Of a stretch of DNA of 64,000 nt, positions 15,137-55,766 are shown piece after piece (position 1 is the first letter of the stretch; each line of letters begins with the position of its first letter). A program made the translations under genes and the position numbers. The notes beneath the pieces are model-generated. The model was not told the origin of the DNA. It saw nothing but the letters and a program-made list of their open reading frames with translations, and did no database searches. The DNA is from Daphnia pulex (Eukaryota; Arthropoda; Branchiopoda; Diplostraca; Daphniidae), in contig NC_060027.1 in NCBI RefSeq assembly GCF_021134715.1, positions 496,001 to 560,000 on the forward strand, given 5' to 3'.

Positions 15137-15477
15137 AGTTGTTGTCTTATTTACCTAATCTCTTATCTATAATTTGATTCAACTTATTGTCAAAAATTTA
15201 CCATAAAATGAATGATTACCAAAGTGTGATGTATTTTTATTAGTGCGATGTGTTAACTCAGACACTTTAAAACAGGAGTACAGGCTACGCTTTCCCGTCA
15301 AACAGTTTCAAAAGACAGTTGGATTTCGTTGCCATCGGTTATTTGTAAATTGCAACCGTACAGTACGGTTACAATTAGAGTACGGTCCGTACTCTACGCG
15401 TAAGTATATACGTAGGTATCTCTTATAATTGCCACTAGAACTTAGCTCACTAGCCGCAGTTTTTATCACCTGACTCT
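15137..15477. other. DCTN2 3' flank with two small palindromes, abutting the large inverted repeat
   Basis: Two short inverted repeats sit side by side: 15354-15370 (AACCGTA, 3-nt loop, TACGGTT) and 15377-15395 (AGAGTACGG, 1-nt centre, CCGTACTCT). The outer edge of the palindrome arm begins about 80 bp further on. I see no gene. Confidence 0.7.
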
Positions 15478-15659
15478 GGGGAATCCTCACTCATACTCGA
15501 GGTAACTTTGCAGTCAACATGTGTGAGGAATTTTAGATTCGTTACATTTTTTTTGCATATCTTCGCTGTGATTTTTTGCATGCAAATCAACCTGCAGACA
15601 GGTTGGCCAGTTTGTCCAGATAGGATGTCCTTCTCGCTTGAAGGTCGCGGGAAACATTA

Positions 15660-16130
15660 CGTGTAAAACTATCAATGCGGTGGTGTAGAGGTTGGGTGAG
15701 AATAACAGTGTTTCGTCATTATCAAAGCAGGGTCAATAGCCGCAAGGGTAAGCTATTTGGTATTCATTTTGATTTTTGTAGACCCATCCCCAGCAACGTC
15801 AACCTAAAGAAGGAAAGGCGAGTTTGCATTTCCTTCACTCTCGAAGGTCACGGAGATCATTACGTAAAACTGGCATGCGGTGGTGTAGAGGTTGGGTGAG
15901 AATAACACGTGTTTCGTCATTATCAAAGCAGGTACAAAAGCCGCAAAGGTAAACTATTTGGTATTCATTTTGATTTTGGTTTTTGTAGACCCATCCCCAG
16001 CAACGTCACCTGCAAAAGGAAAGGCCAGTTTGCATTTCAATCGAAGGTCATGGAGATCTTTACGTAAAACGTGTCATGCAGTGGTGTAGAGGTTGGGCGA
16101 GAACGGGACATTTTACATCATTATCAAGAA
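15660..16130 (+). repeat. ~200-bp tandem repeat, left arm (about 2.3 copies)
   Basis: The block GTGGTGTAGAGGTTGGG recurs at about 15680, 15880 and 16081, a period of 200-201 bp. Each unit also holds GTTTCGTCATTATCAAAGCAGG, the phrase CTATTTGGTATTCATTTTGA, GACCCATCCCCAGCAACGTC and a GAAGGTCAYGGAGATC block. Copies differ by small indels. It lies directly upstream of the TATA box of the decayed gene array. Confidence 0.85.
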
Positions 16131-16174
16131 GGTAAAATAACCGCAAGGCTTAAGAGGAGGGGTGAGAAAAAGTC

Positions 16175-16183
16175 GTATAAAAG
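16175..16183 (+). promoter_or_regulatory. TATA box of the decayed secreted-protein gene array, left arm
   Basis: GTATAAAAG, followed some 20-30 bp on by the purine-rich start of a presumptive 5' UTR and about 115 bp on by a relic first exon. The mirror copy is at 25465-25473. Core promoter by position and sequence only. Confidence 0.5.
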
Positions 16184-16199
16184 GAGAGAGAAAAATCGA

Positions 16200-16560
16200 C
16201 AGGGATCAGTCGAGCGAGTACCTCCGACACGGTAAGAGCTGCAGTGCGCTATTTGCCATCAGCTGCATTCTTCATCGTATTATCAGTTCTCAATCATAGG
16301 TAAATTTTCTGTTGTTACATGGAGTCATGTATCAATTTCTATTGCGTTTTCTCTTTGTTAATATGCCAGTTATTTTTGCGCATTAATATTTAAATTATTC
16401 AATGTCTAGTCGTGTATAGGGGCAAAGAAAAGGCGATAGAAATCAGTCGAGTGAACATCTCCGATATGCAAGAGCAGCAGTGCACCATTTGTCACCAGCT
16501 GCATTCTTCTTCGCGTTACCAGTTTTAATCATGGGTAGATATTCTGTTTCTAACCTGTAG
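16200..16560 (+). pseudogene. Two orphan first exons of the Tyr/Thr-rich secreted-protein family, left arm
   Basis: Two copies of a 5' exon module: AGTCGAG(C/T)GA, then a pyrimidine-rich GCTGCATTCTTC block, then the start codon at a splice donor. In the first the start is lost (CAATCATAG/GTAAAT near 16297). In the second ATG at 16531 is kept (ATGG/GTAGAT), but no matching second exon follows before the next copy. They are remnants of tandem duplications. Compare the intact layout ATGG/GTAAAC at 16787 with its second exon at 16885. Confidence 0.6.
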
Positions 16561-16786
16561 TTTTTAACGTTGTTAATCATTCCACTTTTTTCTATATGTT
16601 GATATCCCAGTACTATAATTAAATATTAAAGTTAAATTTTTTTAAAGTTTCTAGTTAATTATGGCGCCGTGCTGTTACCAGTTACTAGTCGTTACTCGTT
16701 ACCAACTGTGCTCTTCTTTACATTTATACACTTTACACACTTATCTTTACCAACTGCATTCTTCATCGCATTGCCAGTTTGATATC

Positions 16787-17217
16787 ATGGGTAAACATTT
16801 TTACATGGAGTTGTGAATCAAATTTCTATGTGTTAACATGCCAGTTATAATTTCATATTAATGTTCAAATTTTTAATTGTCTAGTAAACTATGGCGTCGT
16901 GCTGCTGTTGGGTCTTGTATCGTTGATGGCTGGTTCAGCCACTGGTGTAGCGATGTCTCCTGGGTATGGCGGATAACAAATCGCAACGCCGCCACTATTA
17001 CACAACATACGACACGACCAGTTGCTACACCAAGGCCTTTAAGTATTGCACCAAGGCTCCAGGTTAATATATAACAACTTATGCAGCCCTGAGCTACTAC
17101 ACCGAATCCCCGCAGTATTTTTCTTCCCCGAGCTACACTACCAAAGGGTCGATTACTACACGGATGCTCCAAAGTACTACACCACCAAAGCACCGTAGTA
17201 CTACACAACCACATATC
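16787..17217 (+). pseudogene. Decayed Tyr/Thr-rich secreted protein gene, copy 1, left arm
   Basis: The first exon is ATGG at 16787-16790. The second exon starts at 16885 after CTAG and continues in frame to give a clear signal peptide, MVNYGVVLLLGLVSLMAGSA, then TGVAMSPGYGG and a stop (TAA) at about residue 31. Beyond the stop, another frame resumes the repeat body: HYYTTYDTTSCYTKA, SKYCTKAPGYY, TTYAALSYYTESPQYF, SSPSYTTKG. A 2-base loss after GGCGGA explains the break, and a further shift follows near 17160. The repeat style (YYT-KAP-EYY) is that of secreted or cuticle-like structural proteins in branchiopods; that link is inference. A second signal-like module follows immediately (copy 2). 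Confidence 0.7.
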
Positions 17218-17412
17218 ATGGGTAAATATTCTGTTAAGTGGAGTTTTATTATGCCAAGAACAAAATATACAAATTATTCATTGCCTAGTAGTATGAGAGG
17301 AGAGAAAAGGTGAAATAATTCAGCAGCCGAGTGAACATCTCCGTCACAGCAACAGGAACTGCCGTGCACTTTTTGTCATCAACTTCATTCTTCGTCGTAT
17401 CACAAGTTTTAA

Positions 17413-18163
17413 ATGAAGGTAAAATTTCCCCATAGGGTACTGAATCAACTATACTTTATTTCTATTTGTTAATAAACCAGTACCATAATAGGAAATTAAA
17501 TGTTAAAATTTATTAATTGTCTAGGGAACTATGGCGTCGTGCTGCTGTTGGGTGTCGTATCGTCGATGGCTGGATCGACCACTGGTGTGCCGATTTCTCC
17601 TGGGTGCGGCGGACTTCAACAACAACATACGCAACAACCGGATGCTACACTGAGGCCCCCAAGTGCTACACCACCAAGGCTTCAGAGTATTAAACCGTAA
17701 CTGATGCCACCCCAGTTTATGTTGGCCCGAGCTACTACGCAGAATCTCCGAAGTATTTTTCTTCCCCGAACTTCACTACCTTCACTATACCGCCTCCTTA
17801 CCAAACAACAACGTCAACACCTACATACTAACGAAGGGAGCGGAGTACTACACCACGCAGGGAGCGGAGTACTACACCACGCAGGGAGAGGAGTACTACA
17901 CCACGCAGGGAGTGGAGTACTACACCAAGGCTCCAGTTTACTTCACTACAACCCACGCTGCTCCAGAGTACTGCACTGATGTTCCAAAGGACTACACCAC
18001 CAAAGGCATCCGAATATTACATCACTACTTTCGTTACTACCAAATCCTACACCGAAGCTCCCAAAGCACTTCTTTGCCCCGAGTTACTACACCACTAACG
18101 CAGCCGAATAACACCCCAAACTACGATTCCGCAATTTTCTACATGGAAATTCCTTATTATTAG
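17413..18163 (+). pseudogene. Decayed Tyr/Thr-rich secreted protein gene, copy 2, left arm
   Basis: First exon ATGAAG at 17413. The second exon (from 17525) holds the signal-peptide block YGVVLLLGVVSSMAGSTTGVP in a frame that the first exon no longer feeds. A frameshift after the Gly-Gly turn moves to a frame reading TTTYATTGCYTEAPKCYTTK, then SEY-stop, then TVTDATPVYVGPSYYAESPK and so on to TPTY-stop. The 24-bp EYYTTQGx repeat array follows in yet another frame, then KAPVYFTTTHAAPEYCTDVPK and a final shift near 18005. At least three frameshifts and two in-frame stops make it non-functional. The lesions are the same in both palindrome arms. Confidence 0.75.
17837..17932 (+). repeat. 24-bp coding minisatellite (4 units), left arm
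   Basis: Four back-to-back copies of GGAGCGGAGTACTACACCAC plus GCAG, starting at 17837, 17861, 17885 and 17909. In its own frame each unit reads GAEYYTTQ; units 3 and 4 have E or V for A. Confidence 0.9.
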
Positions 18164-20605
18164 AGCCGAAATTTCTACTCGGGGTTATTTATATGTATCG
18201 GTTATTTTCATGGTGATTGGTCGCTGGGAATCAATTGTTGATCTTAAATGAGAAAAAAAAGGTTTAATACGGGTATGTTTTTGTAAGACTTGGTTAGTAA
18301 CTTCAAGCCTGTTAACATTGCTACAGGTGTCTTTTGTGTTGGATTTCTTCAAGGCCAGTATGCTTGCTGAGTTATAAATTATTTTATGTTAGACTACTGC
18401 CTTAGTTACACTCATTGTTCTTGTGGCTTGACGATGACTTTAAGGGCGAAATAAGAAAGAAACTTGTAACCGTTGATTTTTTCAAATCTTACAAATAAGA
18501 GGCAAGTGACTGACCTTTGTATAAATGAAAGACTTTGAAGTTGAGAAAAATATATTGATACAATTCCTAAACAAAACTTGGTATTCATTTAGAAACAATG
18601 AACAAAAGACTTGAAAAAGAATTGTGTTATATTGTCCCACCTCCACCCACAATTCCACCACATTTTACAGTCACATACATACATACACATATACATACAA
18701 TAAGATAACCCATTGCCTGCCACGCCATACAACCCGTAGGTTGCTCTCTACTACTCTACGCGCCACGTCAGAAGGATCCATGACCAAGTGGGACTTGCCA
18801 TTGCTGACAAGTCCGTGCTGAAAAGGGGGAACTATGGTGCATTGCCTGAAACAGGCGCCTTGCGGCAGATTTTGGGCTTGGCGACTCTCCGACCCCGCGG
18901 CTTGTAAACCACGAGACCGAACAGCGCGGCCCGTGCTAAGGAGCTAGGGGAGAACAAAGGCGTGGCAGCCAACGGGTTAACTAACACTAACACAAACGAA
19001 ATAATACCAACAATACTATGATCCACGTTGATGACGAGTCTCGGAATTCCATCTTCTCGACGTCTCCTCTGCATTACCTGAATAAAGACAAAACAATTTT
19101 TATTTAGTGACATGCCAATTAAAGTTACATTATACAGATAGAAACAATAATCAGGTTTTTAAGCTCAAAGATTTAAAGATTCAATTTTTTTAACTTAAAA
19201 TCAAGCTTGCAATATTGAGAACAGTAAACAGAACAAAGCTCACTTGCTAGTCTTGAAAAAAAAATTCCGGAAGTATACCGGAAGTAACCACAGCGCCTCA
19301 ACCATTAAGCTGTCGTCAAATTAAACCACATATTTGTGATCTCCATGAAATTTGGGGTCGAATAGGTATGATTTAAACGAAATCCAAAATTTGGCCAAAA
19401 TCGAAAATTTTCCTGAACTATAGTTCAGGAAAATTTTCAAAACCGGAAGTACGAAAACGTAAAAAAGATTACATGAACTTTGTCACAAATTTGATGAGGA
19501 TCACGAATATGTGGTTCTTTTGCTCCTGGAATGAATATTTACTGAACTACTGACTGAAATGAGCAAACCGGAAGTAAAAAAAAAAAAGCAATTATCGAAA
19601 ATTTAACAAGTGAGCTTTGTTGCTGGAATAGTAATCGTCAGTTATCACTAAATATTTCAACAAAATAACTGACAATAAATGTTTAAAGAGATGTGCAAAG
19701 TAACTGAAACTGACTGTTTTGACAGCTGCAAATTATCAAAAAGCCATCTAGCGTTGGAAAAAAGAAACGTCCAAGTAAAACTTCGTTTGAGCGTAATAAA
19801 GCCCTGATTTTGGAAACTATATCACAGACAGAGTCTAACGCACCTAGACTATTAATAGATAACCTACGAAAATAAGTCAATTGTTGGGTACCTGGGCATA
19901 ATCCCGTGGTGAGTGACTCCAGGTGTGTAACAGCGGACGGAAGCGATCACTGAAGGTGTCCAGAAACTCGCCAAGTCGCCAATGAAGTAAAACAAATTGT
20001 GTTTAGAAGCAGTGAAGCTAGATGAGCGAAGATAAGCATGGAGAAGAACGTTGATGGAAGTCCCTCTTCCGTCATGGACAAAGGTCAGCATGGGCACAAG
20101 AATCTCCGTGCCAGGACCACACGATTCCATAAAGAAACTGCGTGCTCTGTAAAATAAAATGTTTCACATTAATGAAAATATAACAAAGAATAAAGCATAT
20201 CAATCTTTACCTTTTCTAAGAAGCACACTGAAATGTTCATGATGAAAAAACCGTAATAATGATCACAGCAACCAACAGCATTACTCCACGTGTTGAGATA
20301 AATTTCCTGATTCTCAAGAAAGTGTCATGAAGTATTGCAGTAGCATGGTGATAGGTGGTTCACTCTTCATGTCACTGAAACTCTAAGTGTAAATGGGACA
20401 AGGAAATTCTCTATGTTATTTACAAATTTACACAAATTTACCTATGAAAAATAACTCTGTACCTATGTCTTAGCTGGGTTGCCTTCTAAAAAAAAGTAAA
20501 AACAGCCATAACAACAAACATGCTGTTGCAGGGTACGCCACCAAAATTGCGAGATTCAGAAAAGATCCTATGGTTCAAGATTACCTATGTTACATGAAAA
20601 TCTGT
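18164..20605. other. Inner half of the left arm: no recognisable gene
   Basis: Contains three open frames on the minus strand: 19113-18832 (93 aa), 20130-19864 (88 aa) and 19880-19683 (65 aa). The first two are flanked by acceptable splice signals (TTTATTCAG before the first, TTTTACAG/AGCACG and CCAG/GTACCC around the second). I recognise none of them. A module at about 19255-19580 has five GGAAGT/ACTTCC boxes around a perfect palindrome. The open frames may be exons of an unknown gene or transposon debris. Confidence 0.5.
19403..19438. repeat. 36-bp perfect palindrome, left arm
   Basis: GAAAATTTTCCTGAACTA followed exactly by its reverse complement, with no loop. It sits among ACTTCCGG/CCGGAAGT boxes at about 19266, 19279, 19444 and 19569. 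Confidence 0.9.
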
Positions 20606-21041
20606 ATTGTAATAGTCTGGTAGCAGTAATGGGGAAATACCTTATCTCTGCACATTTCTATTCCACTATATGTGAAACATCAGTTTTAGGCTTTTGGCTG
20701 CATGAGGATTAATGGATCAAAATTGACTGAGCGCTAAGTCAACTTGTTGGAATGACTGACAGTATGCATCTAAAATTTGAAGAAAAAAAATGATACAGTA
20801 TATAAATAAGGAAACTAGGTAAAGATAAACTTACAAATGAAATATGATACAAAGTTCAATTTGGTAATTGAAATCACAGGAATAAAGTATAAATTTGCAA
20901 CAATTTCGCCTCGTTTCACCATGAAAGAACAACAACATGGGCGAAATTAGCGACATCTGGTAATGAGTTTTGAATCAAGTTGCCAACTCAAAACGAAATT
21001 CTTCAAAACTCATTACCAGATGTCGCTAATTTCGCCCATTT
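20606..21041. other. Spacer of the large palindrome
   Basis: Unique sequence between the arms. Its first 65 bases (to about 20670) continue a repeat that is also present, in the same orientation, at 26669-26738. The left arm plus these bases is therefore the older arrangement, and the right arm joins at a new breakpoint at 21042. The last 100 bases form a separate hairpin. Confidence 0.7.
20937..21039. repeat. 38-bp perfect inverted repeat with 27-nt loop at the arm junction
   Basis: 20937-20974 (ATGGGCGAAATTAGCGACAT and 18 more bases) is the exact reverse complement of 21002-21039. Its axis (20988) differs from that of the large palindrome (20823.5), so it is an independent hairpin. It ends 2 bp before the right arm begins. 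Confidence 0.95.
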
Positions 21042-23483
21042 ACAGATTTTCATGTAACATAGGTAATCTTGAACCATAGGATCTTTTCTGAATCTCGCAA
21101 TTTTGGTGGCGTACCCTGCAACAGCATGTTTGTTGTTATGTCTGTTTTTACTTTTTTTTAGAAGGCAACCCAGCTAAGACATAGGTACAGAGTTATTTTT
21201 CATAGGTAAATTTGTGTAAATTTGTAAATAACATAGAGAATTTCCTTGTCCCATTTACACTTAGAGTTTCAGTGACATGAAGAGTGAACCACCTATCACC
21301 ATGCTACTGCAATACTTCATGACACTTTCTTGAGAATCAGGAAATTTATCTCAACACGTGGAGTAATGCTGTTGGTTGCTGTGATCATTATTACGGTTTT
21401 TTCATCATGAACATTTCAGTGTGCTTCTTAGAAAAGGTAAAGATTGATATGCTTTATTCTTTGTTATATTTTCATTAATGTGAAACATTTTATTTTACAG
21501 AGCACGCAGTTTCTTTATGGAATCGTGTGGTCCTGGCACGGAGATTCTTGTGCCCATGCTGACCTTTGTCCATGACGGAAGAGGGACTTCCATCAACGTT
21601 CTTCTCCATGCTTATCTTCGCTCATCTAGCTTCACTGCTTCTAAACACAATTTGTTTTACTTCATTGGCGACTTGGCGAGTTTCTGGACACCTTCAGTGA
21701 TCGCTTCCGTCCGCTGTTACACACCTGGAGTCACTCACCACGGGATTATGCCCAGGTACCCAACAATTGACTTATTTTCGTAGGTTATCTATTAATAGTC
21801 TAGGTGCGTTAGACTCTGTCTGTGATATAGTTTCCAAAATCAGGGCTTTATTACGCTCAAACGAAGTTTTACTTGGACGTTTCTTTTTTCCAACGCTAGA
21901 TGGCTTTTTGATAATTTGCAGCTGTCAAAACAGTCAGTTTCAGTTACTTTGCACATCTCTTTAAACATTTATTGTCAGTTATTTTGTTGAAATATTTAGT
22001 GATAACTGACGATTACTATTCCAGCAACAAAGCTCACTTGTTAAATTTTCGATAATTGCTTTTTTTTTTTTACTTCCGGTTTGCTCATTTCAGTCAGTAG
22101 TTCAGTAAATATTCATTCCAGGAGCAAAAGAACCACATATTCGTGATCCTCATCAAATTTGTGACAAAGTTCATGTAATCTTTTTTACGTTTTCGTACTT
22201 CCGGTTTTGAAAATTTTCCTGAACTATAGTTCAGGAAAATTTTCGATTTTGGCCAAATTTTGGATTTCGTTTAAATCATACCTATTCGACCCCAAATTTC
22301 ATGGAGATCACAAATATGTGGTTTAATTTGACGACAGCTTAATGGTTGAGGCGCTGTGGTTACTTCCGGTATACTTCCGGAATTTTTTTTTCAAGACTAG
22401 CAAGTGAGCTTTGTTCTGTTTACTGTTCTCAATATTGCAAGCTTGATTTTAAGTTAAAAAAATTGAATCTTTAAATCTTTGAGCTTAAAAACCTGATTAT
22501 TGTTTCTATCTGTATAATGTAACTTTAATTGGCATGTCACTAAATAAAAATTGTTTTGTCTTTATTCAGGTAATGCAGAGGAGACGTCGAGAAGATGGAA
22601 TTCCGAGACTCGTCATCAACGTGGATCATAGTATTGTTGGTATTATTTCGTTTGTGTTAGTGTTAGTTAACCCGTTGGCTGCCACGCCTTTGTTCTCCCC
22701 TAGCTCCTTAGCACGGGCCGCGCTGTTCGGTCTCGTGGTTTACAAGCCGCGGGGTCGGAGAGTCGCCAAGCCCAAAATCTGCCGCAAGGCGCCTGTTTCA
22801 GGCAATGCACCATAGTTCCCCCTTTTCAGCACGGACTTGTCAGCAATGGCAAGTCCCACTTGGTCATGGATCCTTCTGACGTGGCGCGTAGAGTAGTAGA
22901 GAGCAACCTACGGGTTGTATGGCGTGGCAGGCAATGGGTTATCTTATTGTATGTATATGTGTATGTATGTATGTGACTGTAAAATGTGGTGGAATTGTGG
23001 GTGGAGGTGGGACAATATAACACAATTCTTTTTCAAGTCTTTTGTTCATTGTTTCTAAATGAATACCAAGTTTTGTTTAGGAATTGTATCAATATATTTT
23101 TCTCAACTTCAAAGTCTTTCATTTATACAAAGGTCAGTCACTTGCCTCTTATTTGTAAGATTTGAAAAAATCAACGGTTACAAGTTTCTTTCTTATTTCG
23201 CCCTTAAAGTCATCGTCAAGCCACAAGAACAATGAGTGTAACTAAGGCAGTAGTCTAACATAAAATAATTTATAACTCAGCAAGCATACTGGCCTTGAAG
23301 AAATCCAACACAAAAGACACCTGTAGCAATGTTAACAGGCTTGAAGTTACTAACCAAGTCTTACAAAAAAATACCCGTATTAAACCTTTTTTTTCTCATT
23401 TAAGATCAACAATTGATTCCCAGCGACCAATCACCATGAAAATAACCGATACATATAAATAACCCCGAGTAGAAATTTCGGCT
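21042..23483. other. Inner half of the right arm: mirror, no recognisable gene
   Basis: Carries the plus-strand twins of the left-arm frames: 21517-21783 (88 aa), 21767-21964 (65 aa) and 22534-22815 (93 aa), with identical translations. Identity at protein level fits any very recent duplication and does not by itself show selection. Confidence 0.5.
22209..22244. repeat. 36-bp perfect palindrome, right arm
   Basis: Second copy of the 36-bp palindrome at the mirrored position, also perfect and also flanked by ACTTCCGG boxes. Confidence 0.9.
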
Positions 23484-24234
23484 CTAATAATAAGGAATTT
23501 CCATGTAGAAAATTGCGGAATCGTAGTTTGGGGTGTTATTCGGCTGCGTTAGTGGTGTAGTAACTCGGGGCAAAGAAGTGCTTTGGGAGCTTCGGTGTAG
23601 GATTTGGTAGTAACGAAAGTAGTGATGTAATATTCGGATGCCTTTGGTGGTGTAGTCCTTTGGAACATCAGTGCAGTACTCTGGAGCAGCGTGGGTTGTA
23701 GTGAAGTAAACTGGAGCCTTGGTGTAGTACTCCACTCCCTGCGTGGTGTAGTACTCCTCTCCCTGCGTGGTGTAGTACTCCGCTCCCTGCGTGGTGTAGT
23801 ACTCCGCTCCCTTCGTTAGTATGTAGGTGTTGACGTTGTTGTTTGGTAAGGAGGCGGTATAGTGAAGGTAGTGAAGTTCGGGGAAGAAAAATACTTCGGA
23901 GATTCTGCGTAGTAGCTCGGGCCAACATAAACTGGGGTGGCATCAGTTACGGTTTAATACTCTGAAGCCTTGGTGGTGTAGCACTTGGGGGCCTCAGTGT
24001 AGCATCCGGTTGTTGCGTATGTTGTTGTTGAAGTCCGCCGCACCCAGGAGAAATCGGCACACCAGTGGTCGATCCAGCCATCGACGATACGACACCCAAC
24101 AGCAGCACGACGCCATAGTTCCCTAGACAATTAATAAATTTTAACATTTAATTTCCTATTATGGTACTGGTATATTAACAAATAGAAATAAAGTATAGTT
24201 GATTCAGTACCCTATGGGGAAATTTTACCTTCAT
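23484..24234 (-). pseudogene. Decayed Tyr/Thr-rich secreted protein gene, copy 2, right arm
   Basis: Mirror of the 17413-18163 copy. Every frameshift and stop noted there is present here, and the open frames have identical translations. The decay therefore predates the inverted duplication, or conversion has copied it between the arms. Confidence 0.75.
23715..23810 (-). repeat. 24-bp coding minisatellite (4 units), right arm
   Basis: Reverse complement of the left-arm array with the same four units, including the variant third and fourth. Confidence 0.9.
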
Positions 24235-24430
24235 TTAAAAACTTGTGATACGACGAAGAATGAAGTTGATGACAAAAAGTGCACGGCAGTTCCTGTTGCT
24301 GTGACGGAGATGTTCACTCGGCTGCTGAATTATTTCACCTTTTCTCTCCTCTCATACTACTAGGCAATGAATAATTTGTATATTCTGTTCTTGGCATAAT
24401 AAAACTCCACTTAACAGAATATTTACCCAT

Positions 24431-24861
24431 GATATGTGGTTGTGTAGTACTACGGTGCTTTGGTGGTGTAGTACTTTGGAGCATCCGTGTAGTAATCGAC
24501 CCTTTGGTAGTGTAGCTCGGGGAAGAAAAATACTGCGGGGATTCGGTGTAGTAGCTCAGGGCTGCATAAGTTGTTATATAATAACCTGGAGCCTTGGTGC
24601 AATACTTAGAGGCCTTGGTGTAGCAACTGGTCGTGTCGTATGTTGTGTAATAGTGGCGGCGTTGCGAGTTGTTATCCGCCATACCCAGGAGACATCGCTA
24701 CATCAGTGGCTGAACCAGCCATCAACGATACAACACCCAACAGCAGCACGACGCCATAGTTTACTAGACAATTAAAAATTTGAACATTAATATGAAATTA
24801 TAACTGGCATGTTAACACATAGAAATTTGATTCACAACTCCATGTAAAAATGTTTACCCAT
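24431..24861 (-). pseudogene. Decayed Tyr/Thr-rich secreted protein gene, copy 1, right arm
   Basis: Mirror of the 16787-17217 copy: same signal peptide, same premature TAA after the Gly-rich turn and same later shift. It differs by a few substitutions (for example TCTAAG for TTTAAG near 24608, and TATTATATAAC for TAATATATAAC near 24580), which lets a 115-residue frame stay open from 24682 to 24335. Confidence 0.7.
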
Positions 24862-25086
24862 GATATCAAACTGGCAATGCGATGAAGAATGCAGTTGGTA
24901 AAGATAAGTGTGTAAAGTGTATAAATGTAAAGAAGAGCACAGTTGGTAACGAGTAACGACTAGTAAGTGTTAACAGCACGGCGCCATAATTAACTAGAAA
25001 CTTTAAAAAAATTTAACTTTAATATCTAATTATAGTACTGGGATATCAACATACAGAAAAAAGTGGAATGATTAACAATGTTAAAA

Positions 25087-25447
25087 ACTACAGGTTAGAA
25101 ACATAATATCTACCCATGATTAAAACTGGTAACGCGAAGAAGAATGCAGATGGTGACAAATGGTGCACTGCTGCTCTTGCATATCGGAGATGTTCACTCG
25201 ACTGATTTCTATCGCCTTTTCTTTGCCCCTATACACGACTAGACATTGAATAATTTAAATATTAATACGCAAAAATAACTGCCATATTAACAAAGAGAAA
25301 ACGCAATAGAAATTGATACATGACTCCATGTAACAACAGAAAATTTACCTATGATTGAGAACTGATAATACGATGAAGAATGCAGCTGATGGCAAATAGC
25401 GCACTGCAGCTCTTACCGTGTCGGAGGTACTCGCACAACTGATCCCT
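25087..25447 (-). pseudogene. Two orphan first exons, right arm (mirror copy)
   Basis: Reverse complement of the left-arm orphan exons, with the same lost start codon in the outer copy (CCTATGATTG on the plus strand where the initiator should be). Confidence 0.6.
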
Positions 25448-25516
25448 GTCGATTTTTCTCTCTCCTTTTATACGACTTTTTCTCACCCCTCCTCTTAAGC
25501 CTTGCGGTTATTTTAC

Positions 25517-25988
25517 CTTCTTGATAATGATGTAAAACGTCCCGTTCTCGCCCAACCTCTACACCACTGCATGACACGTTTTACGTAAAGATCTCCATGA
25601 CCTTCGATTGAAATGCAAACTGGCCTTTCCTTTTGCAGGTGACGTTGCTGGGGATGGGTCTACAAAAACCAAAATCAAAATGAATACCAAATAGTTTACC
25701 TTTGCGACTTTTGTACCTGCTTTGATAATGACGAAACACGTGTCATTCTGACCCAACCTCTACACCACCGCATGCCAGTTTTACGTAATGATCTCCGTGA
25801 CCTTCGAGAGTGAAGGAAATGCAAACTCGCCTTTCCTTCTTTAGGTTGACGTTGCTGGGGATGGGTCTACAAAAATCAAAATGAATACCAAATAGCTTAC
25901 CCTTGCGGCTATTGACCCTGCTTTGATAAAGACGAAACACGTGTTATTCTCACCCAACCTCTACACCACCGCATTGATAGTTTTACAC
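25517..25988 (-). repeat. ~200-bp tandem repeat, right arm (mirror copy)
   Basis: Reverse complement of the left-arm array, with the same phrases in opposite order. CAACCTCTACACCAC recurs at about 25553, 25754 and 25956. Confidence 0.85.
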
Positions 25989-26295
25989 GTAATGTTTCCC
26001 GCGACCTTCAAGCGAGAAGGACATCCTATCTGGACAAACTGGCCAACCTATCTGCAGATTTACTTGCATGCAAAAAACACAACGAAGATATGCAAAAAAT
26101 GTAACGAATCTAAAACTTCTCACACATGTTGACTGCAAAGTTACTTCGATAATGAGTGAGGATTCCCCATATTCCAACTATTTTTCCAAACTGATTTCAA
26201 GACGTCGTAAAAGACCAGTAGCGGCAACAAGCGCCATCCATTGACCACAAGAACTAAATTCATAACCTTAGTGTTTGCAGATCTGTCGGAAAGAA

Positions 26296-27235
26296 TAAAA
26301 TGATTATTGGTTATGGATTAAAAAAGTTAACAATGTTTCCTTTACTTTCCTATTACATATGTTTTCATGTACAGATATGGTACATGTACATACACATGGC
26401 AGGTTATTCACTTCACACTCTTCATGTCTCTGAAACTCTAAGTGGAAATGAAACAAGGAAATTCTCTACATTATTTACAAATTTACACAAATTTACCTAT
26501 GAGAATTAAAACTGTACCAGTGTACCTATATCTTAGCTGGTTTGCTTTCTAAACAGAAGTAAAAACAGCCATGCCATAACAACAAACATGCTATTGCAGG
26601 GTATACCACCAAAATTGCCAGATTCAGAAAAGATCCTATAATTCATGAACAAGAATACCTATGTTATATGAAAATCTGAATCGTAATGGTCTGGTGATGG
26701 GGAAATACCTTATCTGGCACATTTTTATTCCACTATAAAAACTGGGAATAGGGTAAACAGAACAGCAAACACGATGCAATAATGGGGTGAGAATGACGTC
26801 AGTGGCATCACAATTAATCACTCACAAATTCATCTAATGTAGCATTGGTTTTAAGGCCTTCAGCTTGGCCAAATCATGAGAAGGCACATGTGTAGACTTG
26901 ACCATTCTCGTATTTCTACTAGGTTTCGCAAAATAGTGGCCTATATAAAATAGTATTTCATAACATGATTATTGGCTGTATGGATTTAAAAAATAAAATT
27001 GTTTCCTATTATTTTTCTGTACTCATGTACAGATCTGGTACATGAACATACACATTGCAGATTATTCACTTCACACTCTTCATGTCACTGAAACTCTAAG
27101 CAGCAATGGGACAAGGATATAACCTATGTTATTTACAAATATAAACAAATTAACTTATGAGAAATAAAACTCTACCTATCCCTCAGCCTTCTAAACAGAA
27201 GTAGAAAGTAGAAACATCCATAACAACAATTGACG
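26296..27235 (+). repeat. Two diverged direct copies of palindrome inner-arm sequence
   Basis: Unit 1 (about 26300-26740) and unit 2 (about 26965-27232) share GATTATTGG, a GTACAGAT.TGGTACATG box and TTCACTTCACACTCTTCATG, at offsets of about 658-665 bp. Both match left-arm 20352-20670 in direct orientation (CTGAAACTCTAAG, AAACAGCCATAACAACAA), at clearly lower identity than the arms show to each other. They are members of one dispersed repeat family. Confidence 0.75.
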
Positions 27236-52974: not shown

Positions 52975-53072
52975 GATTGTAATAATGTCTGTTCTGATAC
53001 AATTTGTAAATTGTTCGAGCGAGCTTTAGCTCGCGATGAGCAATTTGGATTGTTGGGGGAATGGAGTGAAGA

Positions 53073-53193
53073 CATTGACTGTGTGCGACCTCTATATTTC
53101 AGCTGCTTCTCAGCAAACAAAAGAACAACAAAAACGGGGGATAGGTGAGAGATGGCGCTCAGGTGGGCGGACCTTTCCCTTAGACACATCAGA
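53073..53193 (+). repeat. Left inverted terminal repeat of the DIRS element
   Basis: Runs from ACATTGACTGTGTGCGACC to CTTAGACACATCAGA. Reverse complement of 55625-55744, with no mismatch seen over about 118 bp. Confidence 0.9.
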
Positions 53194-53264
53194 ATTGGAA
53201 GCAAAAACAAACTGTGGATCTGGCTTAACGGAAAATGTGTAAGGTGATCCATGGTTCAAATGGC

Positions 53265-55595
53265 CTATTTGTTGTTGTTGTTCTGATCGCCTTTATTGGC
53301 GGGATTGGGTGAGCCACGGTCGAAATTGGATCTGCGGCTATCATTGTTGTATCTAGCAAAAAGATAGAAGGAAAGAGGAATTAGTGGGCCGTCAATAATC
53401 AGATGCTGCACCTAATTCAAGTTAAATAATATAATGATAACGGGAATGAAGTGGGCGGGATGGGTGGTTAGAAGACAGTCAATGTCTTCACTCCATTCCC
53501 CCAACAATCCAAATTGCTCATCGCGAGCTAAAGCTCGCTCGAACAATTTACAAATTGTCGGTAAATTCGTTCGACATTGACTGTGTCTTTAAAGCAAGAT
53601 ATAATCAGATATAATAAGATATAAGATAAGACCCCCTGATGGTCGACAGTTACCAACGCCTGATTGAAAATTGGAGCTCGTGGGAGCCCTGCTGGACTGT
53701 GTAACATGGATGCGCCACCAAATCGGCATTTCGTCTAAAAAGGCGTCAATACTCTTTCATACGAATAGTTGTCGGAGGGTTCCTTCCCACCGTGCTGCAG
53801 CTCTTGCTGGAATGAAAATTAACAAGGAAAAGCTAATACCTCCTTGACGCCAGACAACAGAGAGTTGTGGTTCCGTTGCTTACACCAACTGCTCCAAGCG
53901 ACCTCAGCGGACTGGTATGCAGGGTGCGTATTCGATCGAATTGCTCCCAGTATGAGCTCGATAATTTCCTTCGGAAAGGTTCGTTCTTCCAGACAACTCC
54001 GGAGAACCACCGAGCGATAAAACAGATGGATTCGTTCCTGTCAATGGATGACCCTCCCCCAACGGGGAGATCAGCCTACTTGGATGGGAAGAGAAGGAGC
54101 GGAATTTCCGTTGCTAGCTCTATCAGGGACGGGAGGTCAGTGGTGTTGCTAGGGCAATCTCGGCTAGTTTCCTAGTCCTTATTCGTTTCATACTGCCCCC
54201 CTCCCTTCTTTAAAAAGGATGCATCCGACGCCCTGGACAAATCCGTCGTCGGGAAAACTGAGCGGACGGCCAGATGTAAAATCTGCCTTTGAAACCACCC
54301 AAGAAGGATTTCTAAGAGCCTCTTGTAAACGTGCCGAAAGCGTAAATTGCTCTCTTGACCTGATCAGATGATCATCCGGTTTGGAATCTAAGGGGATCCG
54401 AAGAGCACGGAAGTGTGCTGGGGCAATTCTATACCCGTGCGCCGAGATTAAAATCTCATCCCAATAAAGTTCGAGGCGAAGGTCGTTCTTCCGCAGGAAG
54501 GTTACCACTCCCCTTGCTAGTCTGGTGAACGCCCATCACATTGAGTTTAAAACGAAGGAGGGGGGGGGCACGAATTCGAAGAAAACGCCCCCATTTAAAC
54601 TGAAGGAATTTCAAAAGGCCTTCAAAAATAGGAAAAAAAATTGAGACCGACAAGTATGAGTCAATCAAGTTCAACTTGGTGAGCCAACCCGCTCCCGAAT
54701 AATTGGACGGGATCACAAATAGAATTTAGTTGTAGATATGGGGCCACCGTTGATAAATTCCACCGATCGAAAGCCGGTCTTGACAATTTAACATAAAAAC
54801 GCGCTATGCGTCCAAGAGAAAAAACCCATAAAAGGAAAGGAGAATAGATTGGACATACCGAGATCCTTTAAAATTGGAATAGCGACCGCCTGAAGATGAA
54901 GGGGGGTGGCTGAAATCGCGACTCGATTGGCGTTGATCATGACCACCTTTAGATCCGGGCGCGCGAGGGGCTCCCGCGTTTTCGAGAGCGTTCAGAGTTT
55001 TCACTTGCTCGACCAGGGCCTGGGTGAACTTCGGACCGAAGAGGTGTTCTCCACCCGTTGGCAGGACAGCTTTGTCGTCTAGCAGTCCAATATTCTGCGG
55101 GTAGATTTGGGCCAGAATGTTGCGGCGTCGCGCGTTCGTGATGTCGTGGTACACCACCGCCCAGAGCTTCAGAGCTGTTTTGACCGCCTTGGCGTCGGCT
55201 CGGGATTTCTTCTTTTTCTTGAGCCGACTTGCTAGAAACATGATGGGCTTGACTAAGTCAAGGATCTTGAAGGTTTGATTTCTGTAGATTTTCTCGATTG
55301 GGTCGATGTTGACCTTGGCTGCCGAAGATGACTTAACTGCCTTCAGCCGGATGTAGAATGCATCATCTAGATTGGGGTTGATCAGCAGGTCGGCGTTCTT
55401 CTTTAGCTTGGGTCTAAAGGCCTCTCTAGCACTTTTCGCTCGAGTGTCATCTAAACCCGATACGACCCAGTCGGCCAAACTAGCTGACTTTTCACTTGAG
55501 AGACGAAATTTCTTTACGCCTCCTCTTCTTGATGAGTCGGAGCCTGAACTACTAGAATTTGAGCTAGAATCGCTTGACTGTTCGGGATCCGACAT
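53265..55595 (-). CDS. DIRS Gag-like protein, probably spliced from two exons
   Basis: Exon 1 (55595-54859) codes a Ser-rich acidic N-terminus (MSDPEQSSDSSSNSSSSGSD), then a basic, helical body (DWVVSGLDDTRAKSAREAFRP, LINPNLDDAFYIRLKAVKSS, FKILDLVKPIMFLASRLKKKK) of the kind seen in DIRS ORF1/Gag, and a Gly/Ser/Arg tail. At GGATCTCG/GTATGT a good donor interrupts the tail. The acceptor TTTTTGCTAG/ATACAAC at 53353 restores the frame into exon 2 (53352-53265), YNNDSRRSNFDRGSPNPANK and so on, of the same Arg/Asn/Gly-rich style, ending in TAG. Joined length is 274 aa. The 1.5-kb intron would remove all RT and recombinase sequence. Unspliced, the frame ends at 54804 after 263 aa. The splice is inference from frame, sites and composition. 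Confidence 0.65.
53476..53583. repeat. Internal complementary region of the DIRS element
   Basis: 53476-53557 is complementary to the left end (53000-53081) and 53554-53583 to the right end (55737-55766). The two parts overlap by a few bases at the virtual circle junction. In the DIRS model this block acts as a splint for joining the ends of the cDNA. Confidence 0.9.
53819..54010 (-). pseudogene. Tyrosine recombinase fragment of the DIRS element
   Basis: MVLRSCLEERTFPKEIIELI...SNTHPAYQSAEVAWSSWCKQRN resembles the helical core-binding domain of DIRS tyrosine recombinases (a '...R.ST...Y...W..W...C' pattern). The frame stops at 53819, and no catalytic domain with the R-H-R-Y residues follows before the internal complementary region. 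Confidence 0.55.
54188..54716 (-). pseudogene. DIRS reverse transcriptase fragments, frameshifted
   Basis: Two overlapping frames. 54716-54456 has KLNLIDSYLSVSI...KFLQFKWGRFLRI, corresponding to the 'DLKDAYLSVPI...FLRF.W.G' palm motif. 54508-54188 has LRLELYWDEILISA, corresponding to 'L.LYLDDILI.A'. The catalytic YxDD reads YWDE, the first Asp of the palm motif is Asn, and the usual sequence between the two blocks is largely missing. The copy cannot encode an active enzyme. Confidence 0.7.
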
Positions 55596-55624
55596 GATGT
55601 TTGCACAACGAGAGCGAAAAGAGA

Positions 55625-55744
55625 TCTGATGTGTCTAAGGGAAAGGTCCGCCCACCTGAGCGCCATCTCTCACCTATCCCCCGTTTTTGTTGTTCTTTTG
55701 TTTGCTGAGAAGCAGCTGAAATATAGAGGTCGCACACAGTCAAT
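55625..55744 (-). repeat. Right inverted terminal repeat of the DIRS element
   Basis: Starts TCTGATGTGTCTAAGGGAAA and ends ACACAGTCAATG. It lies directly upstream of the Gag start codon at 55595, so it should hold the element's promoter. Confidence 0.9.
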
Positions 55745-55766
55745 GTCGAACGAATTTACCGACAAT

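Follow-up and report, generated by a model that had tools for sequence, protein, structure and literature searches.

Most work on long palindromes concerns sex chromosomes, on which more than one cause operates at the same time. Foldback or long-TIR DNA transposons are another group of sequences with long inverted arms, which occur as dispersed copies and have a hairpin-forming centre. In Daphnia sex is set by the environment, and Daphnia pulex includes both cyclically sexual and obligately asexual lineages. Among the systems described so far, the ampliconic palindromes of the mammalian Y and X chromosomes have near-identical long inverted arms and undergo arm-to-arm gene conversion, according to the sections of the papers drawn on here (PMC8981503, PMC7953838). 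In the corresponding sections, the inverted gene blocks of the springtail Folsomia candida and the rotifer Adineta vaga are discussed as structures that help gene conversion in parthenogenetic animals (PMC5490193, PMC7953838); for F. candida, a wide Ks range is taken there as evidence against concerted evolution (PMC5490193). The portion used of a multi-species palindrome screen states that D. pulex was omitted, being one of three species without annotation (PMC7953838), and the titles and abstract openings of the papers listed gave no description of palindromes in Daphnia.

The present work deals with a window of 64,000 nucleotides of D. pulex (NC_060027.1, positions 496,001 to 560,000) and with the palindrome found in it. 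An earlier note had treated this palindrome as a single locus, a view that is rejected here: genome searches with the arm gave at least 36 inward-facing arm pairs on 10 of 13 contigs, and the window palindrome is one member of a dispersed family. This family resembles the mammalian X and Y palindromes in its near-identical inverted arms and in the conversion inferred between them. It differs from them in its distribution over those 10 contigs, in the sharing of a centre type by many pairs and in its gene content: the arm copies of a gene, named here YYTT for its Tyr-Tyr-Thr-Thr repeat, look mostly broken, whereas histone genes at the C10:3949k palindrome are intact. The same note had drawn a link to sex-chromosome ampliconic regions. 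Since the inward pairs are so widely spread and sex determination is environmental, a sex-chromosome role is not supported, and the YYTT copies, being mostly broken, do not favour such a region either. The palindromes of F. candida and A. vaga are likewise inverted blocks in invertebrates, detected as collinear genes in the parts of those studies used here; unlike F. candida with the wide Ks range given there, D. pulex has arms that are alike locus by locus. Foldback or long-TIR transposons share with the D. pulex family the long inverted arms, the dispersal and the hairpin centre. Unlike them, the family has variable outer limits, its arms grow into neighbouring DNA, and 10 palindromes lack a target-site duplication at their ends, although element ends may lie elsewhere. 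It constitutes a replicated set of at least 36 inward pairs, spread over many chromosomes and carrying genes that are mostly broken, and its host has sexual and asexual lineages. As a family whose members each have two nearly identical halves, it is a test case for how palindromes spread and stay self-alike outside sex chromosomes, and it would permit direct tests of the conversion rate, the need for sex, the escape of the centre, and the growth and spread of palindromes.

The window palindrome is 10.7 kb long. BLASTN of the window against itself aligned the left arm (15477-20606, plus strand) with the inverted right arm (26169-21041, minus strand) at 99.221% identity over 5132 columns (E = 0), with 35 mismatches and 4 gap openings; the arms are thus of 5.13 kb, separated by an asymmetric spacer of 434 bp (20607-21040). 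This self-match confirms the giant near-perfect palindrome of the earlier note, whose coordinates (15478-20605 and 21042-26168, spacer 436) were correct to 1-2 bases. The arm-to-arm alignment that it had proposed was also made, and this global alignment contains 40 differing columns along the long inverted match. The outer 2 kb (15477-17476, plus strand) hold 38 of them and the inner 3.1 kb only 2, a spread as uneven as which was obtained in none of 100,000 random placements. The clustering holds when neighbouring differences are merged (34 events) and when the outermost 150 bp are left out (25 events). The left and right flanks of the palindrome are unlike each other, and a 24-bp array motif is present four times in each arm.

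The spacer of the window palindrome is not neutral filler. It contains the left-arm remainder of a repeat called here X (20607-20976), of which the right arm lacks the mirror copy, about 330 bp in length, and also the axis hairpin (20937-21039), a self-inverted match at which X and inverted X join tail to tail. This hairpin is the symmetry axis of the palindrome family; its predicted folding energy is -44.4 kcal/mol, where shuffled sequences average -9.1 (z -13.3). The spacer stretch is found on both sides of the axis at C11:635k, C11:2364k, C7:10624k and C10:3949k. The whole inner copy of X runs from 20361 to 20976 on the plus strand, and X is also found inverted at outer arm ends and elsewhere in the genome. 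Past the right arm there is an outer X copy (26416-26737, plus strand) with 84.2% identity to 20361-20670, which has matches in the outer portions of further loci of the family, and a second partial X at 26960-27187.

Seventeen loci were read, the window included: 13 near-identical palindromes, one diverged palindrome (L030, 90.5% over 1830 columns), one probable decayed palindrome (L034) and two single arms (L029 and L031). The near-identical and diverged palindromes represent 14 of the at least 36 inward pairs. Family counts are lower bounds, each family search having scored 40 of 253-742 first-look candidates; the family has at least 13 members, and its total is probably a few dozen. Among the 100 inner-arm copies listed, the pairs within 8 kb were 30 inward, 0 outward and 0 same-strand, in a count that merged same-strand matches within 1.6 kb and mostly omitted small secondary matches; another genome search supplied the remaining 6 inward pairs. 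The general plan of an arm, as the sequences show, consists of an outer X, at least one mostly broken YYTT gene, a repeat-rich stretch and an inner X; the two arms are joined by their tails where two inverted X ends form the axis.

Three types of centre were distinguished by a pattern search for the junction. Type A, that of the window, is found at four loci, all on C11; type B at ten (eight on C10, one on C7 and one on C8), with the centres at C10:2217k, 2822k and 2859k belonging to unpaired copies; and type C at six (two on C7, three on C9 and one on C12). Reversed control patterns gave 0 matches. Two of the three types, B and C, occur on more than one chromosome, and conversion between loci could partly account for the common centres. 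These data also bear on an assembly or library artefact, produced by fold-back reads from missed adapters or by mis-joined haplotypes. Such an error would be in keeping with evidence taken from a single assembly sequence and not from reads. However, the 40 differing columns of the window arms include both substitutions and indels, the two flanks of that palindrome differ, centres of the three types are shared among 20 loci, and of the 11 near-identical palindromes with the 24-bp motif, 8 have unequal motif counts in their two arms; an artefact is therefore unlikely.

Arms resemble each other more than they resemble the arms of other loci. In trees that drew on 14 loci, all from one assembly, the two arms were mutual closest relatives at 11 of 11 testable loci for the inner segment and at 9 of 9 for the outer segment, and the window arms were sisters in both. 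Inner-arm identity is 93.5-100% within a locus, and to other loci it has means of 89.6-92.1% and best values of 92.3-99.3%. Next to the axis, a region of about 500 bp has an identity of 88.3-97.7% at all nine assessable loci, in each case less than the majority of the remaining bins in the same arm; the bin adjoining the central one is the lowest (83%) at C9:8482k. The inverted pieces of the centre have 82-85% identity at C4:3579k and C7:267k, where the arms have 98.4-100%. Outer-edge bins are also low, 84-95% at C7:10624k and 75-98% at C10:3949k. Close to the axis, pairing of the X copies by locus fails at C11:3300k, C7:9930k, C9:8482k, C4:3579k, C7:267k and C10:2987k; part of the central divergence may therefore go back to two X copies that already differed, and need not reflect age.

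The arm trees, the uneven differences and the diverged centres make it very probable that gene conversion maintains the likeness of the window arms, one of the two usual cases (recent origin or conversion) given in the earlier note, whose link to sex chromosomes is not supported. Besides, exchange between palindromes has left what looks like a sign in the inner arm part (18777-20576, plus strand), which is 97.3-100% identical per 300-bp bin to the C11:635k palindrome, 118 kb away; the window bins in 15477-18476 are 78-93% identical to it. In this comparison some bins, over the arm as a whole, aligned only partially. On the other hand, many recent and independent events, each an inverted duplication of one of the dispersed single arms, could produce high arm likeness within loci with no conversion at all, single arms do occur (L029, L031), and a very recent duplication could be an alternative source of the long stretches free of differences. 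This explanation is improbable, since the window differences are not uniform, diverged centres lie beside near-identical arms, axis junctions are common to several loci, and no outward or same-strand pairs were seen among the listed copies.

From the sequences compared, it is likely that the palindromes spread as palindromes and that arm-to-arm gene conversion keeps each of them uniform. The ancestral palindrome would have arisen at inverted X ends, where a hairpin could fold back and prime the copying of one strand into a mirror. Its centre would later have been shortened by deletions, which would be expected if a perfect long palindrome is unstable, giving rise to several centre types. Whole palindromes of one centre type would then have been copied elsewhere, to other chromosomes too, by ectopic copying driven by homology or breaks and not by a transposase. 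At each site the arms would pair and overwrite each other by gene conversion and so stay nearly identical, and the region near the axis may escape because it lies in the hairpin turn. Repair copying that overruns an arm end would join neighbouring DNA to the palindrome, as proposed for 2 kb at C9:8482k and for the histone genes at C10:3949k, and palindromes in which conversion has ceased would decay, leaving either a diverged pair or a single arm. It is a rather doubtful but conceivable extension that the palindrome is selfish and largely non-coding, its hairpin axis starting fold-back or break-driven copying that rebuilds the arms of a site as identical ones, gives rise to new palindromes on further chromosomes and carries neighbouring genes. 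If true, this would be a selfish DNA structure spreading by repair, without an enzyme of its own.

The outer ends bear on a different kind of mobility. A non-autonomous, foldback-like mobile element with terminal inverted repeats of giant size could jump as a palindrome and have its arms renewed at each jump. It would account for one asymmetric centre on different chromosomes and for arm pairs that are only inward among the listed copies, and it would need no intact cargo gene. An outward-facing X tail is present at an outer end at 7 of the 17 loci, and a defined element would give these tails too. However, the outer limits of family homology vary between loci, and palindromes reach into neighbouring DNA: the C9:8482k palindrome extends 2 kb past the family homology, with arms 100% identical over the 1870 bp searched, and other copies of this extension are found only on C9, with pieces on C12 (all 5 of 5 candidates scored). 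Target-site duplications are of 0-1 bp at 10 of the 13 near-identical palindromes, as judged at palindrome ends that are not always the ends of the family sequence, which continues past one palindrome end at some loci, the window included. No transposase was seen in a scan that covered a single ORF of a window arm and a single insert from a C7 centre. An element of this kind is unlikely, and an ordinary transposon with defined ends is not favoured.

Concerning the contents of the window arms, the left arm carries a first YYTT copy (16160-17240, plus strand, exon limits set by eye), mirrored by arm symmetry at 24407-25487 on the minus strand, in which a signal-peptide-like frame from about 16881 stops after about 31 codons. 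The second copy (17300-18163, plus strand) has a signal-peptide-like frame from about 17524, open for 58 codons, a 24-bp tandem array (17831-17927) in a different frame, and an open stretch of 152 aa (17705-18160) that recurs in the right-arm mirror (23484-24347, minus strand) at 23484-23942. This stretch matched no Pfam family, and one viral-contig scan gave no relative of the YYTT stretch. Conservation within the family is highest in the repeat-rich mid-arm segment (18310-20360, plus strand), which is 80-98% identical to the copies listed. Searches of Rfam (at gathering score), of tRNAs with ARAGORN (bacterial settings) and of a plasmid collection gave no matches. The window YYTT copies are disrupted in both arms. 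Across the family, 43 signal-peptide matches were obtained at 15 of the 17 loci, the C10 loci giving none, and 3 of the 43 continue as frames of at least 150 aa when read to the first stop without intron modelling. As most arm copies look broken, selection on the YYTT protein is an unlikely cause of arm identity. The arms of C10:3949k contain intact histone H2A and H2B genes; the DNA captured there is also present in the left flank of C10:2987k and therefore is not unique to that palindrome. At L034, a long open YYTT frame sits at the expected place of the left arm.

The giant near-perfect palindrome described in the earlier note was confirmed by BLASTN of the window against itself, in which 15477-20606 aligned with inverted 26169-21041 at 99.221% over 5132 columns, leaving a spacer of 434 bp. 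It is genuine and belongs to a large family of dispersed palindromes. Its arms differ by substitutions and indels, and the flanks are unlike. Each family arm carries at its inner end a copy of a repeat, X (20361-20976 in the window), and the axis of each palindrome is the tail-to-tail meeting of two X copies; the window has a spacer because its right X lacks about 330 bp. Folding of the axis hairpin gives -44.4 kcal/mol, compared with an average of -9.1 for shuffled sequence (z -13.3). Two MITE-like inserts, with inverted ends of about 21 and 14 bp, were recognised by eye in the arm (18707-18981 and 19234-19627, plus mirrors), and the second contains a perfect 36-bp palindrome at 19403-19438.

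The genome (133,188,837 bp, 13 contigs), in which the window occupies C11:496001-560000, was searched for arm sequences, and the resulting counts are lower bounds, as each family search gave 253-742 first-look candidates, of which 40 were scored. A query with the arm's outer 1.2 kb, for which 40 candidates were scored, hit 23 loci; 17 of them are inward pairs spaced by about 8-16 kb, and 6 are apparently alone among those scored. With four family variants as queries, and same-strand hits within 1.6 kb merged, the inner arm yielded at least 100 distinct copies; among the matches listed these form 30 inward pairs and 40 unpaired copies (three of which are members of pairs found with the outer arm), with neither outward nor same-strand neighbours within 8 kb. 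The outer-arm search alone added six inward pairs, giving at least 36 in total, and the palindrome is therefore a family member rather than a lone locus. These pairs are spread over C2, C3, C4, C5, C7, C8, C9, C10, C11 and C12, so the comparison with sex-chromosome ampliconic regions fails on location.

Seventeen loci, the window among them, were read, and these cover 14 of the 36 inward pairs; they are named here by contig and position in kb. All ten picked as pairs proved to be palindromes. The arms of C7:10924k match at 98.9% over 3.8 kb, and its centre (L018:3-2894) holds an insert that bears an open RVT_1 reverse-transcriptase frame, by appearance of non-LTR type. C4:3579k and C7:267k, picked solely by tail-to-tail X repeats, are palindromes too (98.8% and 98.4-100%). 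Among four single-looking loci, C11:294k and C5:6573k each show one arm alone over the 10 kb that was read, C7:9930k is a diverged palindrome (90.5% over 1830 columns), and C7:8550k is probably a decayed one, with a long right arm and, on the left side, short inverted pieces 73-80% alike over 192-296 columns.

Trees of arm segments bear on how the arms are kept alike. For the inner segment (window 18900-20350), taken from 14 loci, the two arms were sisters at all 11 loci where both were present, identity being 93.5-100% within a locus and 92.3-99.3% to the best match at other loci. For the outer segment (15840-16530) arms paired by locus in nine of nine cases, one of them at support 0.84. Segments below 900 bp (inner) or 500 bp (outer) of the query were dropped (the right inner of C7:10924k, both outer of C10:2987k and C12:9699k, the right outer of C7:9930k), and C4:3579k, C7:267k and C7:8550k stood outside the trees. 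In the window, 38 of the 40 differing columns lie within the outer 2 kb of the arms; none of 100,000 random placements was as uneven in a Kolmogorov-type test, and the result stood when neighbouring differences were merged and when the outermost 150 bp were left out. Very probably the arms are homogenised locus by locus, and the earlier note's analogy of arms kept alike by gene conversion holds on the arm trees and the clustered differences.

The roughly 500 bp adjoining the axis are 88.3-97.7% alike, below most bins of their own arm, at all nine assessable palindromes, a set that leaves out the window for its deleted right X and C7:10924k for its insert. At C4:3579k and C7:267k the inverted pieces around the centre agree at 82-85%. 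This pattern fits an old axis escaping conversion, and ancestral differences between X copies may also contribute. Near-axis X copies pair by locus at C11:635k, C3:11255k, C7:10624k, C12:9699k and C10:3949k, and do not at several others. Low bins at the outer edge (84-96% at C7:10624k, 75-98% at C10:3949k) and the lowest bin of C9:8482k (83%), which lies beside the central one, speak against a simple picture. At a rate of 2.30-4.53e-9 substitutions per site per generation, as given in PMC12926508, centres that differ by 2-12% would be, very roughly, millions to tens of millions of generations old, and arms that differ by 0-1% no more than about two million.

Pattern searches allowing up to 3 mismatches distinguished three classes of axis junction: type A has 4 loci, every one of them on C11; type B has 10, on C10 (8), C7 and C8; and type C has 6, on C7 (2), C9 (3) and C12. 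Controls with the patterns reversed matched nothing. The types are apparently different central deletions; longer X tails are retained at C4:3579k and C7:267k. The asymmetric centres (B and C) common to different chromosomes argue that the palindromes spread as palindromes. Type B centres lie at C10:2217339, C10:2859739 (one inner arm each among the matches listed) and C10:2822439 (none among them), which are possibly half-lost palindromes. Counts of an array motif are unequal between arms at 8 of 11 near-identical palindromes with the motif (for example 18/25 at C11:635k, 12/16 at C11:2364k, 1/12 at C7:10624k, 11/3 at C9:8482k) and equal at three, the window included. Fold-back reads are a poor explanation of the palindromes, since neither unequal counts nor centre types common to 20 loci are expected from them.

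The window inner arm (18777-20576) is 97.3-100% alike per bin to C11:635k, 118 kb off, against 78-93% for bins of 15477-18476, some aligned partially. The conflict between inner and outer trees is in line with this, which is read as a sign of exchange between palindromes. Some palindromes have apparently grown into the DNA beside them. C9:8482k runs 2 kb beyond the family homology, with arms 100% identical over the 1870 bp searched, a sequence found elsewhere on C9 only, plus pieces on C12. C10:3949k gives a 16-kb palindrome alignment (98.5%) with histone H2A and H2B genes inside, and its outer DNA is common to the left flank of C10:2987k. These genes lie within the arms in C10:3939961-3959960, and eight type B centres fall in C10 1.85-3.95 Mb, which may be a histone cluster built upon such palindromes. 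Outward-facing X tails stand at the outer ends of 7 of the 17 loci. Judged at the palindrome ends, past one of which family sequence sometimes continues, no target-site duplication above 1 bp was present at any of the 10 palindromes examined out of 13 near-identical ones. A mobile element is a less likely source.

Within the arms lies a gene, in one or more copies, that starts with a signal-peptide-like sequence and contains Tyr-Tyr-Thr-Thr repeats (YYTT). No Pfam family was found for the window stretch, and a repeat stretch of C7:9930k scored 19.1 bits against Cornifin, far below the cut-off of 34.8. A 28-aa window query gave 43 matches at 15 of 17 loci; with each frame followed up to its first stop, three of the 43 lay in frames of at least 150 aa (one arm of C7:267k, one of C9:8482k and the start of L034, the C7:8550k locus, 431 aa). 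The last frame, open for at least 431 aa at L034:1-1293 (C7:8547001 onward), lies at the expected left-arm site of that probable decayed palindrome and is a candidate for an intact gene of this family. As few frames are open and both window copies look broken in each of the two arms, selection on the protein is probably not what keeps the arms identical.

Among the matches listed from the open-licence literature there were no papers on Daphnia palindromes. PMC7953838 reports a screen of 23 parthenogens in which A. vaga had 19 palindromes and F. candida 16 (its table has 15), and places D. pulex outside that screen; PMC5490193 gives a wide Ks range for F. candida blocks and argues against concerted evolution there.

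The window also contains a 2.7-kb element (52999-55747) whose inverted ends, 123 bp long, match perfectly (53071-53193 / 55625-55747). It has a second perfect inverted match of 84 bp (52999-53082 / 53475-53558), and its minus strand bears a 276-aa ORF that matched no Pfam family. We take it to be reminiscent of a short DIRS-like element.
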